DNA of 39,090 nucleotides from Pseudacidovorax intermedius. Its GTDB lineage: Bacteria > Pseudomonadota > Gammaproteobacteria > Burkholderiales > Burkholderiaceae_C. The position numbers were made by a program, and so were the translations under genes. A model generated the notes under the pieces. It did not search any database, was not told where the DNA came from, and saw only the letters and a program-made list of their open reading frames with translations. Within the stretch, counting starts at the first letter, position 1. Every line of letters begins with the position of its first letter. The stretch lies in NCBI RefSeq assembly GCF_001476815.1, contig NZ_LDSL01000129.1:1-39090 (forward strand), read 5' to 3'. Shown in pieces: positions 33,996-38,825 of this stretch.

Positions 33996-34670
33996 TCAGG
34001 TGCCGGAGGCCGGCGGGCGTGCCGCGCGGGCACGGGCGAGGGCGGCTTCGACGATGCGGCGCTTGCGTTCGGCGCCGTCGTCGGCGGCGATGGCCGGATC
34101 CGGCGCAGCCACGGCTTCGGCCACGGCAGGCGCCGGGCGATCGGCCTGCGCGGCCAGGCGCCGGCGCCGCGCGTCGTAGCGGCGGCGTGCCCGGTCCGCC
34201 TGCTCGGCCGACCAGGCCGCCCAGCCGCTGCGGCCGGGCGTGACCGGCTCCAGGCCGATGCAGTCCACCGGGCACACCGGCACGCACAGCTCGCAGCCGG
34301 TGCAATGGTCCTCGATGACCGTGTGCATGCGCTTGTGGAAGCCCAGGATGGCGTCCGTGGGGCAGACCTCCAGGCAGCGGGTACAGCCGATGCACCAGGC
34401 CTCGTCGATCACGGCCAGCGTCCGCGGCCCTTCGCTGCCGCAGCCGGGGTCCAGCGGCCGGCGCGGGCGGGCGGTGATGGCGGCGAGGCGCGCGATGCCT
34501 TCGTCGCCACCCGGCGGGCAGCGGTCGATCTCCGCGTCGCCGAGGGCGATGGCCTGCGCATAGGCCGCGCAGTCCGGGTAGCCGCAGCGGGTGCACTGCG
34601 TCTGCGGCAGTGCGTCGAGCAGCTGCGCGGCCAGCGCCGCGGCTTCGGGCCGGGTGAGGGCCTCAGCCAC
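33996..34670 (-). CDS. RnfB-like ferredoxin with three Fe-S motifs
   Basis: The roughly 224-residue cytosolic protein has an Fe-S domain (TQCTRCGYPDCAAYAQAI..EIDRCPPGG) followed by two [4Fe-4S] ferredoxin motifs (CIGCTRCLEVCP and CTGCELCVPVCP) and an Ala/Arg-rich helical tail. It resembles RnfB but lacks the N-terminal membrane helix, and no other rnf genes are nearby; burkholderial genomes often annotate such stand-alone genes as rnfB. I chose a GTG at 34670 overlapping the phaZ stop by 8 bases; an ATG at 34709 would add 13 Arg/Pro-rich residues. The electron partner is unknown. Confidence 0.82.
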   Translation of the reverse strand: MAEALTRPEAAALAAQLLDALPQTQCTRCGYPDCAAYAQAIALGDAEIDRCPPGGDEGIARLAAITARPRRPLDPGCGSEGPRTLAVIDEAWCIGCTRCLEVCPTDAILGFHKRMHTVIEDHCTGCELCVPVCPVDCIGLEPVTPGRSGWAAWSAEQADRARRRYDARRRRLAAQADRPAPAVAEAVAAPDPAIAADDGAERKRRIVEAALARARAARPPASGT

Positions 34671-36165
34671 CCGCGGCGGTCTTGCGCGCGGGCCGCTTGC
34701 GGGCCGCAACCGTACGGGTCGTCGCCGGGGCCGGCGCGGCGGCAGCCACGGCGGCCGGCGCGGGGCGCGTCGTCTTGCGGGCCGTCTTTCGCGGTGCGGC
34801 CGGGGCGGCGGCGCTCACGGCAGGCGCGGCGTGGGCCGGCGCGCTGCTCTGCTTGGGCGGCACCGCATCCTCGGCTGCCAGCGGCGCGTCGTCCCGCTTC
34901 TGCGGCTGGTCGTGGGCGGCGATGAAGGCGCGCACCTTCGGGTACACCATGTCGCGCCAGCGTCGGCCGCTGAAGATGCCGTAGTGCCCGGCACCGGCCA
35001 CTTCGTAGTGTTCACGGTTGCCGGCCGGAATCTGCACGCAGAGGTCGTGCGCCGCGCGCGTCTGGCCGGAGCCGGAGATGTCGTCCAGCTCGCCTTCCAC
35101 CGTCAGCAGCGCGGTCTGGCGGATGTCCTGCGGGCGCACGCGCTCCGGCATGCCGTCGTCGGCGCGCACATCCCAGGTTCCGTTGACCAGGTGGAATTCC
35201 TGGAACACGGCGCGGATGGTTTCCAGGTAGTAGTCCGCGTCCATGTCGAGCACGGCGTTGTACTCGTCGTAGAACTTGCGGTGGGCTTCGGCGCTGGCGT
35301 CGTCGCCCTTCATCAGGTCCTTGAAATAGTCGTAGTGGCTCTTGGCATGGCGGTCGGGGTTCATCGCCACGAAGCCGGTGTGCTGCAGGAAGCCCGGATA
35401 CACGCGGCGGCCTTCACCCGGGAAGCCCTGCGGCACGCGGTAGATCACGTTGTTCTCGAACCACTCGTAGCTCTTGTTCATCGCCAGGTTGTTCACGGCG
35501 GTGGGCGAGCGGCGGGCGTCGATGGGGCCGCCCATCATCGTCATGGACAGCGGCGTCGTCTCGCCGCGGCTGGCCATCAGCGAGATGGCGGCCAGCACCG
35601 GCACCGTGGGCTGGCATACGCTCATCACGTGGCAGTTGCCGTATTCGGCCTGCAGGTGGCGGATGAAGTCCTCGACGTAATGGATGTAGTCGTCCAGGTG
35701 GAATTCGCCGTCCGACAGGGGCACGGTGCGCGCATTCTTCCAGTCGGTGATGTAGACCTTGTGGCCCTGGAGCATGGTGCGCACGGTGTCGCGCAGCAGC
35801 GTGGCGTAATGGCCGGACAGTGGCGCCACGATGAGCACCACCGGCTGCTGCTTGAGCGCGGTCAGCACCTTCGGATCGTCGGTGTAGCGCTTGAAGCGGC
35901 GCAGTTGGCAGAAGGGCTTGTCGAGCTCGACGATTTCGTGGATGACGACGTCTGCGCCGTCGACCTGCACCGACTGGATGTCGAACTCGGGCTTCACGTA
36001 GTCCTTGCCGAGCCGGTAGATCAGGTCGTAGCCGGCCGCCACCCGCTGGGCCATCGGCAGCTGGCTGAACATCGAGCCGTTGCCGTAGAGCTTGGACATC
36101 GCCAGGGCGAAGTCCGAAAAAGGCTCCATAAGCGAGCGCTGGGCTTCATAGAGTTGGTACAGCAT
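34663..36165 (-). CDS. phaZ: Intracellular PHA depolymerase (PhaZ1 type) with basic Ala/Lys/Arg tail
   Basis: The 500-residue protein starts MLYQLYEAQRSLMEPF, typical of the intracellular PhaZ of Cupriavidus-type bacteria. It has a Cys nucleophile instead of Ser: Cys184 in MSVCQPTVP, with Asp361 or Asp362 (EGELDDI) and His394 (GAGHYGIFSG) completing the triad. It degrades stored polyhydroxybutyrate in the granule. The catalytic domain ends near residue 420; residues 425-500 form an added low-complexity tail ending in KTARKTTRP and ARKRPARKT blocks, resembling histone-H1-like or PhaF-type tails. The open frame continues far upstream but this ATG begins the homology. Confidence 0.93.
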   Translation of the reverse strand: MLYQLYEAQRSLMEPFSDFALAMSKLYGNGSMFSQLPMAQRVAAGYDLIYRLGKDYVKPEFDIQSVQVDGADVVIHEIVELDKPFCQLRRFKRYTDDPKVLTALKQQPVVLIVAPLSGHYATLLRDTVRTMLQGHKVYITDWKNARTVPLSDGEFHLDDYIHYVEDFIRHLQAEYGNCHVMSVCQPTVPVLAAISLMASRGETTPLSMTMMGGPIDARRSPTAVNNLAMNKSYEWFENNVIYRVPQGFPGEGRRVYPGFLQHTGFVAMNPDRHAKSHYDYFKDLMKGDDASAEAHRKFYDEYNAVLDMDADYYLETIRAVFQEFHLVNGTWDVRADDGMPERVRPQDIRQTALLTVEGELDDISGSGQTRAAHDLCVQIPAGNREHYEVAGAGHYGIFSGRRWRDMVYPKVRAFIAAHDQPQKRDDAPLAAEDAVPPKQSSAPAHAAPAVSAAAPAAPRKTARKTTRPAPAAVAAAAPAPATTRTVAARKRPARKTAAGG

Positions 36166-36266: not shown

Positions 36267-36905
36267 CTAGCTGCCGACATAGCGGCCCGGCCGGTGGTTG
36301 ATCCAGAGGAAGCCGCCCATCACCATCGCACCCAGGACGGACCAGCCGACCCTGGCCGGCGGCACCACGGCCAGCGCCGCCAGCAGCACGCTGCAGTCGA
36401 TGGCCAGTTGCACCTTGCCGGCGCGCCAGCCGCGGCGCTCCTGCAGGTAGAGCGCGACCACGGTGGCGCCACCCAGGCTGGCCCGGTGGCGGGCCAGGAA
36501 CAGGCAGCCGGTGCCGAGCATCAGGCCGCCGAACACGGCCGCGAAGGCCGGATGCAGCGCCTGGATGGTGACGAAGCGCGGGGCCGTCTCGGTCAGCACG
36601 GACAGCAGCGCAATGGCGGCGAAGGTCTTGATGGTGAATTCGCCGCCCATCTGCTTCCAGGCGAAGCCGTAGAAGGGCAGGTTGAGCAGGAAGAAGCACA
36701 GGCCCATGCCGACGCCCGTGGTGTAGTGCAGCAGGAAGGCCGCCCCGGCCGTGCCGCCGGTCAGCAGGCCGGCCTGCCCGAACAGCACCAGAGCCATGGC
36801 GACGAACAGCGTGCCCGCGCACAAGGCCTGGATGTCTTCGAGGCGGCTGTGGCGAAGGGAGGGTGTCGATACGGCCATGGTGCGGGCGGGAGCGGGGGCG
36901 TCCAT
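36267..36905 (-). CDS. YitT-family (DUF161) membrane protein
   Basis: The 212-residue protein has about five hydrophobic segments; AGTLFVAMALVLFGQAGLLTGGTAGAAFLLHY and GLCFFLLNLPFYGFAWKQMGGEFTIKTF are characteristic of the YitT/DUF161 family, and GGLMLGTGCLFLARHRASLGGATVVALYLQ matches its second repeat. Function is unknown for the family. The N terminus could alternatively start at 36878, ten codons later. It is transcribed toward phaZ with a 101-base gap, so may be independent. Confidence 0.85.
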   Translation of the reverse strand: MDAPAPARTMAVSTPSLRHSRLEDIQALCAGTLFVAMALVLFGQAGLLTGGTAGAAFLLHYTTGVGMGLCFFLLNLPFYGFAWKQMGGEFTIKTFAAIALLSVLTETAPRFVTIQALHPAFAAVFGGLMLGTGCLFLARHRASLGGATVVALYLQERRGWRAGKVQLAIDCSVLLAALAVVPPARVGWSVLGAMVMGGFLWINHRPGRYVGS

Positions 36906-37165
36906 GGGCGGATGCTACGCAATAAGCAAGCCAAATCCGCGTTTCGCCGATGCGGCGCCGCGCCGCGCAATGCGGGAAAACGCTGGTGGCGCAGCGGATG
37001 TCGGGCGTTAGGGGGCGTTCCGTATTGCGGCTGCTGGTCGTACGGCCCGTCGATGTCTTTGCAACGTGCCGCCAGCCCTCTTTCGTGATGTCGCTTTTAT
37101 GAAACAGCCCTTGACAGACAAGACCTTCATGGCGCTGCGAATCCGCGCCGCATGTCGCGCAACTC
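36906..37165. other. Non-coding region upstream of the riboswitch
   Basis: About 260 bases hold no credible gene. A perfect TTGACA lies at 37111-37116 and could be the -35 of the promoter driving the riboswitch transcript, but the region 15-19 bases downstream (catggcgctg) is a poor -10. The promoter of the divergent YitT-family gene should lie near 36910-36960. Confidence 0.35.
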
Positions 37166-37290
37166 GCTGCTGACACGCGAAGGCGATGCAGGCGTCGCGG
37201 TGGCGCGCGGAATCTCCCGAGGATTCACAAGTCGGGTGAGGCCCCGCAACCGTCGCCCGTAAGCCGTAAAACGCCCGGTCTGCCAAACAT
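37166..37290 (+). promoter_or_regulatory. Cobalamin riboswitch
   Basis: The conserved core is visible in order: GGAA (37209-37212), a P5-like stem CCCGA (37216-37220)/TCGGG (37232-37236) with the cacaag loop, the highly conserved gaggccccgcaaccgtc block (37238-37254), then the B12-box-like cgcccggtctgcc (37272-37284). ggcgt (37191-37195) can pair with acgcc (37271-37275) to enclose the core. The B12 box is slightly shorter than the E. coli btuB form. A ribosome binding site follows 8 bases later, as in riboswitches that block translation when AdoCbl is bound. Confidence 0.75.
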
Positions 37291-37307
37291 CCAGGAGTTC
37301 GTCCGCC

Positions 37308-37520
37308 ATGCAGCAGCTTTCCATCGCCACCGCCCCCTTGAGCACACCGCCGGCGGACCCGGCTGAAATGCCGGTGCAACCGGACCGCAGCGTGCCGCCG
37401 ATCCCCGGGCAGCAGCCGCCGTCGCCTGTTCTGCCCGCCATGCGCGCCAAGCTGGCGATGCACATGCGCGCGCATCGCGACTTCATGCTGGCAGCGTCGT
37501 TCCGTTGGCGCACCGTCTGA
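37308..37520 (+). CDS. Unrecognised 70-residue Pro-rich protein under the cobalamin riboswitch
   Basis: AGGAG (37293-37297) lies ten bases before the ATG, immediately after the riboswitch, making this the only gene the switch can directly control. The protein is Pro-rich over residues 10-43 (about one in three Pro), has no membrane span or signal peptide, and ends in a basic amphipathic helix-like part with a Met/His-rich cluster MHMRAHRDFM (51-60). It does not resemble CbtB, BtuB or any cobalamin enzyme I know. It could be a novel B12/cobalt-related protein, a leader peptide, or the remnant of a lost transporter gene. Confidence 0.6.
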   Translation: MQQLSIATAPLSTPPADPAEMPVQPDRSVPPIPGQQPPSPVLPAMRAKLAMHMRAHRDFMLAASFRWRTV

Positions 37521-37777
37521 CGGCGATGGCCCACGCACCGTTGGCCAATCCGCGTCGCTCCTCCTGAACGAGCGCAGTCGGCGGGCAACTTTGCCACCGG
37601 GACGCGGCTGCAGGCATAACCAGCCCGTGCTTTCGACGCGCCTCGTCTCTAAACCGGGCCTCTGACCGACAAGTTCGGCCAGCGCCTCGCATTACCATCG
37701 ACCTTCCGTTGCCGTCCCCACAGGGCGGCTTTCGTTGTCGGCACGCCGCCGATGTTGAACACGAGGGAAGGTTTTCC
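37521..37777. other. Non-coding region before the YqjD-like gene
   Basis: About 257 bases with no credible gene on either strand. A ttgcca-N17-gcataa pair (37591-37619) is a possible promoter for the YqjD-like gene. I see no terminator hairpin for the riboswitch-controlled gene. Confidence 0.3.
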
Positions 37778-38089
37778 ATGTCCGTTTCTAAGAATCTCGA
37801 AGACGCCGCCAATGCCGTGGTGGAGGATCTCGCCAGCGATGTGCGCGGTGTGCTGTCCAACAAGGACCTCGAAGGCGTTCCCCAACTCAAAGCGCTGAAG
37901 CAGCGCGTGGAAACCAAGCTGGCCATCGCCCGCGAACTGGCGGCGGAAAAGAGCAAGGTCGCCGCGAAGAAGGCCAAGGAAGCCGCACAGACTGCCAACG
38001 CCTACGCGCATGACGAACCCTGGCAGATCGCTGGCGCGGCCCTCGCCGTCGGCGTGCTCGTCGGCCTGCTGATCGGCAATCGCCGTTGA
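37778..38089 (+). CDS. DUF883 (ElaB/YqjD-type) membrane-anchored protein
   Basis: The 103-residue protein has a long charged helical body (about 1-80, KSKVAAKKAKEAAQTANAY) and a C-terminal membrane span ending in GVLVGLLIGNRR, the hallmark of the ElaB/YgaM/YqjD family. YqjD of E. coli is a stationary-phase inner-membrane protein that binds ribosomes through its N-terminal part. GAGGGAAGG precedes the ATG at 37778. It is followed 49 bases later by a YqjE-like gene, the conserved family pairing. Confidence 0.92.
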   Translation: MSVSKNLEDAANAVVEDLASDVRGVLSNKDLEGVPQLKALKQRVETKLAIARELAAEKSKVAAKKAKEAAQTANAYAHDEPWQIAGAALAVGVLVGLLIGNRR

Positions 38090-38138
38090 GCGCGCACATC
38101 GTTGCGATGACCGATGCCGTGGCGTCCCGGAGGACGGC

Positions 38139-38825
38139 ATGAACCGCGCGCTCGATCTGCTGGGGGTGGGCCGGCGGGTGCGCCGATGGAAGGCCGCCGG
38201 CGCCGAAGCCGCGCTGGGCGTCCACGACAGGGCCCAGCTGGCCGGCGTGGCTTGGCGGGAAGCCCGGAGCCCGCTCGCGCAGTCCGTCGCGCTGGGTGTC
38301 GCACTTGCCCTTGTGAGCGTGGTGGCGGCCCTGGCGCTGTCGGCGGCCGTCATCGTCCACGCCTGGGATGGGCCCATGCGCGTGCGTGCCGCTTGGGCCG
38401 TGGCGCTCACGTGGGGGGTGGTCTGGGCAGTGCTCTGCACCGTTCTGCTGGCGCGCCTGCGCCAGACCCGTCTTGCCGTCGCGCCGCTGCAGGAGGCGCT
38501 TCATCGCGACCTCCACGGCAACGGCGACACGACCGTCCCGCCGCCTGACGCACAGCAATTGGCGCTGCAGCGCGAGGAGATCCTGGCCCGGATCGCCGAG
38601 CAGCGCGAACGCCGCGCCCTGGTCCGTGCGCATCGCGAAGCCGCCCGGGAGGCCGCTGCGGCGCGTCCGCCCGTCCAGCCGCTGTCCGCGAAGGCCGTGC
38701 AGCTGGCCAAGGCGCATCCCGTGGCCGCGGGCGCCGCGGCGGCCGCCGTGGTGGCCGTCATCGGCCCGCGCCGCGTGCTGCGGTGGACCGGCTGGCTGCT
38801 GCCGATCCTCCTGAAACTGCGTTGA
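38139..38825 (+). CDS. YqjE-like holin-family protein fused to a YqjK-like tail
   Basis: The 228-residue protein has two membrane spans (about 45-73 and 82-106) in a YqjE/phage-holin-III-6-like domain (LAGVAWREARSPLAQSVALG). A charged helical stretch (130-185, QREEILARIAEQRERRALVRAHR) leads to a C-terminal part (AHPVAAGAAAAAVVAVIGPRRVLRWTGWLL) that resembles the separate YqjK-like protein found after YqjE elsewhere. CGGAGGACGGC precedes the ATG. Together with the upstream gene it is an envelope/stress module of poorly defined function. The fusion reading is my inference. Confidence 0.75.
   Translation: MNRALDLLGVGRRVRRWKAAGAEAALGVHDRAQLAGVAWREARSPLAQSVALGVALALVSVVAALALSAAVIVHAWDGPMRVRAAWAVALTWGVVWAVLCTVLLARLRQTRLAVAPLQEALHRDLHGNGDTTVPPPDAQQLALQREEILARIAEQRERRALVRAHREAAREAAAARPPVQPLSAKAVQLAKAHPVAAGAAAAAVVAVIGPRRVLRWTGWLLPILLKLR

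Follow-up and report, generated by a model that had tools for sequence, protein, structure and literature searches.

Known systems and the locus

Cobalamin riboswitches act on genes for B12 transport, B12 synthesis or B12-independent isozymes. Another recognised kind of bacterial element is the small protein that is restricted to one lineage and whose function is unknown. The DNA analysed here, 39,090 nucleotides from contig C34 of Pseudacidovorax intermedius genome G000, hereafter the window, has been compared with both, since a sequence-only reading had placed a cobalamin riboswitch upstream of a 70-residue protein near its end. Likeness to the class described by Rfam model RF00174 amounts to a few short strings in 37166-37297 that are ordered as in the aptamer core, but the stretch differs from that class in having no covariance-model match, in lacking two core strings, in not being conserved and in having no recognised B12 gene downstream. 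With lineage-restricted small proteins the locus shares a short product, a ribosome-binding site of its own, purifying selection and a narrow distribution, whereas the family itself, recognisable by the pattern PV.PDR ... FM.AA.FRWR, is distinct, and the window protein has no match in the models searched.

We consider it very probable (about 93%) that the locus holds a real, genus-restricted gene for a protein of about 70 residues, with its own Shine-Dalgarno sequence, and no cobalamin riboswitch. No cobalamin RNA is detectable, and the frame is conserved under purifying selection. The features of the locus are as follows.

36267-36905, minus strand: YitT-family membrane protein gene, the divergent upstream neighbour (PF02588, E 3e-30)
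37104-37180, plus strand: moderately conserved non-coding stretch, a possible promoter or operator of the small gene (from identity in six loci)
37166-37290, plus strand: stretch claimed as a cobalamin aptamer, unsupported as an RNA element by covariance, profile, folding and conservation tests
37289-37310, plus strand: ribosome-binding site (AGGAG, 37293-37297) and start codon region (from conservation)
37308-37520, plus strand: gene of 70 codons for a small, Pro-rich, C-terminally basic protein (from frame, homologues and dN/dS)
37711-37729, plus strand: hairpin resembling a terminator, in the gap that separates the small gene from the DUF883 gene (from a pattern scan)
37778-38089, plus strand: DUF883 (ElaB/YqjD-like) gene, the downstream neighbour (Pfam DUF883_C, E 5e-9, above its cut-off)

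The small gene can be read directly from the sequence as an ATG frame whose start codon lies ten bases 3' of AGGAG. Of its neighbours, the YitT gene has matches at E<=1e-20 in 12 of the 15 Pseudacidovorax genomes and the DUF883 gene is matched in all 15; the latter also resembles the ElaB model (E 6e-9, under that model's cut-off). The gene after it has a weak, below cut-off match to Phage_holin_3_6 (E 0.0056), and the two together (37778-38825) resemble a pair of the ElaB/YqjD-YqjE type. Further upstream, 34663-36051 on the minus strand encodes a PHB depolymerase C-terminal domain (PF06850, E 2.5e-89).

Tests for a cobalamin riboswitch

The strings on which the riboswitch claim was based are present, as are the ribosome-binding site and the small Pro-rich frame: GGAA lies at 37209-37212, the GAGGCCCCGCAACCGTC block at 37238-37254 and CCAGGAG at 37291-37297. 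That these strings form a cobalamin aptamer is not borne out, and what had been called a B12-box-like 3' end overlaps the Shine-Dalgarno region of the small gene. Searching the whole window with Rfam at gathering thresholds gave no matches, and relaxing the threshold to E<=10 on 36900-37600 produced no cobalamin match, the single match being to a microRNA family on the opposite strand (E 1.9). A count over the 5.5 Mb genome gives two copies of the pattern CCCGCAACYGTC, the one here included, and one copy of a reversed control pattern. Among three core strings taken from the consensus of RF00174 matches (GCCACTG, GGGAAGG and CCGCAACNGT), only the last is found in 37100-37310; the genome's own riboswitch, described below, has all three. 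Folding offers no more: for 37166-37307 (142 nt) the z-score is +0.63, and 146 of 200 shuffles do equally well or better, and for 37206-37265 (60 nt) it is -0.23, with 70 of 200. Neither Pfam nor NCBIfam matches the 70-residue protein, so there is no recognised B12-related gene downstream of the claimed aptamer; PHROGs has no match for the protein either.

Conservation was compared over six aligned loci, the window and five relatives that keep the gene, as mean identities in which gaps count as differences. Between the window and the relatives identity is 26% in the claimed core (37190-37280), a comparison that would not reveal an RNA present in the window's strain alone, as against 72% in the gene; behind the gene (37521-37690) it is 31%. 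Among the five relatives themselves identity over the core columns is 58%, compared with 64% in the spacer behind the gene and 87% in the gene. A cmscan of the five relatives' loci at E<=1 returned no cobalamin match.

The cobalamin riboswitch that this genome has elsewhere serves as a control. Searched at E<=10, RF00174 finds three places in the whole genome, none of which is 37166-37290; the best (G000:C59:27781-28106, equivalent to L006:1501-1826) scores 28.2 bits against a cut-off of 31.5, and the other two are at chance level (12.4 bits). The C59 riboswitch carries CCCCCGCAACGGT; it differs from the window stretch in having GCCACTG, GGGAAGG and AGCCCGGATACCGGCC and in preceding a TonB-dependent receptor gene, recognised by its Plug (E 6e-29) and barrel (E 8e-15) domains. 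Every one of the 15 Pseudacidovorax genomes has an RF00174 match at E<=1, and in 14 it is above the cut-off, the exception being the window's own genome; for the five close relatives the top scores are 31.7-38.9 bits, and G010 has a second, weak match of 13.9 bits. Lying under the Rfam cut-off, the C59 riboswitch could be overlooked by routine annotation. Near it, L006:477-657 (minus strand) shows a sub-threshold 6S RNA match (26 bits, cut-off 46.4, E 0.014).

We also used a sequence profile of nine Pseudacidovorax riboswitches, none from the window's genome (nine of the ten whose loci were available; L044, which is longer, was omitted). This genus profile finds the C59 riboswitch in pieces of 113.9 and 58.5 bits. 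On 37050-37320 it gives nothing even at E<=100, its best match anywhere in the window has 4.7 bits (E 0.95), and in L079-L083 and L088, loci from the genomes with diverged copies described below, there is nothing better than E 1.

One may still consider a cobalamin riboswitch that Rfam misses because it has diverged or belongs to a new class, and that would repress the small gene under ample B12. Such an RNA could be read into GGAA, a short CCCGA/TCGGG inverted repeat, CCCCGCAACCGT and CCAGGAG, which come in the right order, and the CCCGA/TCGGG hairpin is part of the 142-nt minimum-energy fold, if not of the 60-nt one. Yet neither the relaxed Rfam search nor the genus-specific profile recognises it, GCCACTG and GGGAAGG are missing, there is no excess folding, and the five relatives have kept the gene without conserving the core, their loci giving no cobalamin match either; we regard this explanation as extremely unlikely. 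The claims of a riboswitch and of B12 control are not supported, there being no conservation of the RNA stretch where the gene is kept and no covariance-model match, an outcome that the sequence-only reading had itself named as refuting it. The likeness to a riboswitch appears to be due to chance. What is removed is a false claim of B12 regulation, a case that shows how, where GC content is high, a few short strings of the core may deceive, and the locus opens no B12 question.

Selection on the small gene

A protein search finds close copies of the small gene in six of the 15 Pseudacidovorax genomes, namely the window's own and five relatives at 64-68% identity, and the named public records with close copies (4 of 4) are all Pseudacidovorax. 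The ribosome-binding region is kept along with the gene: AGGAGT is present at all six aligned loci, with a mean identity of 68% between the window and the relatives and 88% among the latter. Pairwise comparison of the six loci (15 pairs) gives dN/dS of 0.016-0.368, with five of the 15 dS values above 1 and close to saturation; pairs that include the window give 0.10-0.37 and the ten pairs among the relatives 0.016-0.154. Variable sites fall mostly at third codon positions (19/17/49 of 70 for the three positions). The sequence-only reading had proposed that the protein is a real, B12-repressed product, and it is the first half of this that survives: judged by sequence evolution, the small protein is a supported candidate for a real product, with B12 repression set aside.

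A diverged sister group

Seven further genomes have diverged copies (G002, G007, G009, G012 and G013, as well as G014 and G005), which brings the total with the small gene to 13 of 15 (six close, seven diverged); in these seven the copy lies before an FAD oxidoreductase gene. In the first five, which we call the sister genomes, some 12.5-12.8 kb separate the YitT gene from the DUF883 gene, compared with 0.87 kb in the window. There, a 73-codon frame that matches the window protein directly precedes a gene for an FAD oxidoreductase (Pfam DAO, E 1e-61, tested in G002), and the DUF883 gene lies behind that. When L079 (G002:C37:48000-61800) is set against window positions 36267-38089, the sister group has some 12 kb extra between the YitT and DUF883 genes, in which genes resembling uvrB, iscS, hscA and dnaQ can be recognised by eye. 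G002 and G005 have a tRNA-Val gene upstream of their copy; the window's locus has none. The difference of about 12 kb is a rearrangement within the genus through which the small gene was retained. At E<=1e-30, in a search run without a positive control, the FAD oxidoreductase gene was not found in four of four genomes of the window's group.

The membership of the sister copies rests on their position, on locus-level tblastn and on shuffle and profile tests. In whole-genome searches with the window protein only the copy in G002 was found among them, and weakly (E 0.0036), and the six-row profile A1 at E<=0.01 missed G009, G012 and G013 (15 candidates scored per genome). Locus-level tblastn gave E 4e-11 to 2e-9, values that refer to one 13-kb locus with the low-complexity filter and composition correction off and so flatter a Pro-rich protein. 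When the five close copies (A5) were aligned locally with three diverged ones, the scores were 99-127; shuffles went no higher than 75, and in each of the 15 pairs none of 2000 shuffles reached the real score. All six diverged copies that were compared with a close-copy profile matched it (E 8e-11 to 3e-6, calculated for six sequences), and hhalign of close versus diverged copies gave a probability of 97.9. The five sister copies are under selection as well, with dN/dS of 0.019-0.227 and variable sites distributed 10/6/49 of 73 over the codon positions.

These two groups bear on the suggestion that the frame is a leader peptide or the relic of a lost transporter, with no function as a protein. 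It is indeed short and Pro-rich; that the window protein matches nothing in Pfam, NCBIfam or PHROGs can be read for or against this suggestion. Against this, purifying selection acts in both groups, so that the frame is conserved as a protein; the gene is kept although its neighbourhood differs, being followed by an FAD oxidoreductase gene in one group and by the DUF883 gene in the other; and a relic would not be expected to retain the FMxAAxFRWR block. We therefore disfavour this explanation as highly improbable.

The same comparison speaks to another possibility, that the small protein and the DUF883 (ElaB/YqjD-like) protein are functional partners, co-expressed in the window's group, where the two genes are adjacent and codirectional in six of six genomes. 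However, in the sister group the FAD oxidoreductase gene lies between them, in the window they are separated by a 257-base gap with the terminator-like hairpin, and the DUF883 gene is present in 15 of 15 genomes and the small gene in 13, all of which makes a partnership improbable.

In the remaining two of the 15 genomes no convincing homologue was seen, either at the expected place or in the window-protein search for G003, and neither among the matches listed at the expected place nor in that search for G004. The small gene thus appears dispensable in the genus.

Range beyond the genus

Profile A2, run against 399 genomes of the family at E<=0.001, had matches in six, five of them in the genus and all already in the profile. 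The sixth (G236) was judged a chance match, having an in-frame stop and overlapping, by eye, a BamA-like gene in another frame. Profile A5, run against 399 genomes of the order, matched three, the window's own and two weak ones (G699 and G723, 24.3 bits); probing the loci of these two with four family proteins (tblastn, E<=0.01) brought up nothing. The 399 genomes were in each case a sample of a larger group, and about 14 candidates were scored per genome. There were also 13 weak matches to profile A1 (E 0.001-0.01), and none of those genomes is among the matches to A2, the better profile, at E<=0.001. A plasmid search gave no match, none of 61 pattern stretches in viral contigs was confirmed, and the single match in the PDB (E 0.11) was taken as chance. 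As far as sampled, the family would thus be restricted to Pseudacidovorax, though distant members elsewhere could be missed because the close-copy profile alone missed some sister copies. A small family under clear selection and in one genus, as sampled, makes a modest test case for the origin and persistence of narrow-range small genes.

Features and possible role of the protein

Across 11 aligned members 20 columns are invariant, including (window numbering) P22, V23, P25, D26 and R27, which belong to a conserved front motif PV.PDR, and F59, M60, A62, A63, F65, R66, W67 and R68, which make up a conserved C-terminal block FM.AA.FRWR. There are 13 prolines among the first 45 residues of the window protein, and the last 28 residues carry a net charge of +5 (+6 in a sister copy). 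The helical hydrophobic moment is moderate, at best 0.37 in the window protein and 0.52 in sister copy L079. The window protein matches no family in Pfam, NCBIfam or PHROGs, and sister members have sub-threshold matches only (DUF1580, E 0.048; phrog_164, E 0.11).

The sequence-only reading had noted a cluster of Met and His at residues 51-60 and had listed a cobalt- or corrinoid-binding protein among its candidates. The cluster exists in the window protein, but Met and His are not conserved throughout: the close group shares M53, H56 and M60, and over the 11 members M60 alone is invariant. A metal site and a cobalt role are without support, since only one Met or His residue of the cluster is invariant; nothing found ties the small protein to B12 or cobalt.

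Going by sequence features, one might picture the Pro-rich front half as a flexible tail that bears a short linear motif, while the basic last 28 residues would form an amphipathic helix docking on an acidic surface, such as a membrane face or a partner protein. The small protein would then act as a small adaptor or modulator and be neither an enzyme nor a metal carrier. This combination of a flexible tail and a basic docking helix is put forward tentatively, as a possible mechanism that may well prove wrong. A broader scenario, which we hold to be rather unlikely as a whole, is that this undescribed, Pseudacidovorax-only family of about 70 residues docks by its C-terminal helix on a membrane or partner and recruits a factor by its Pro-rich tail, and that it may have arisen within the genus and reached the DUF883 stress gene via loss of the FAD oxidoreductase gene.

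Other non-coding stretches

Upstream of the small gene, 37110-37180 has a mean identity of 58% between the window and the five relatives and 75% among the latter, above its surroundings, and may include a promoter or operator; no sigma-70-like site was found in 36900-37800. A frame of 21 codons in this stretch (about 37110-37172), with start-like and stop codons in the six loci, was rejected as a second small gene, its variable sites (14/10/11 of 21) having no codon-position bias. The terminator-like hairpin at 37711-37729 was the one found where 0.9 are expected, which is insignificant alone; in some relatives its stem letters change on both sides, by eye in the alignment. The 87 bases 5' of the DUF883 gene (37691-37777) have 90% identity among the five relatives and 68% between these and the window.
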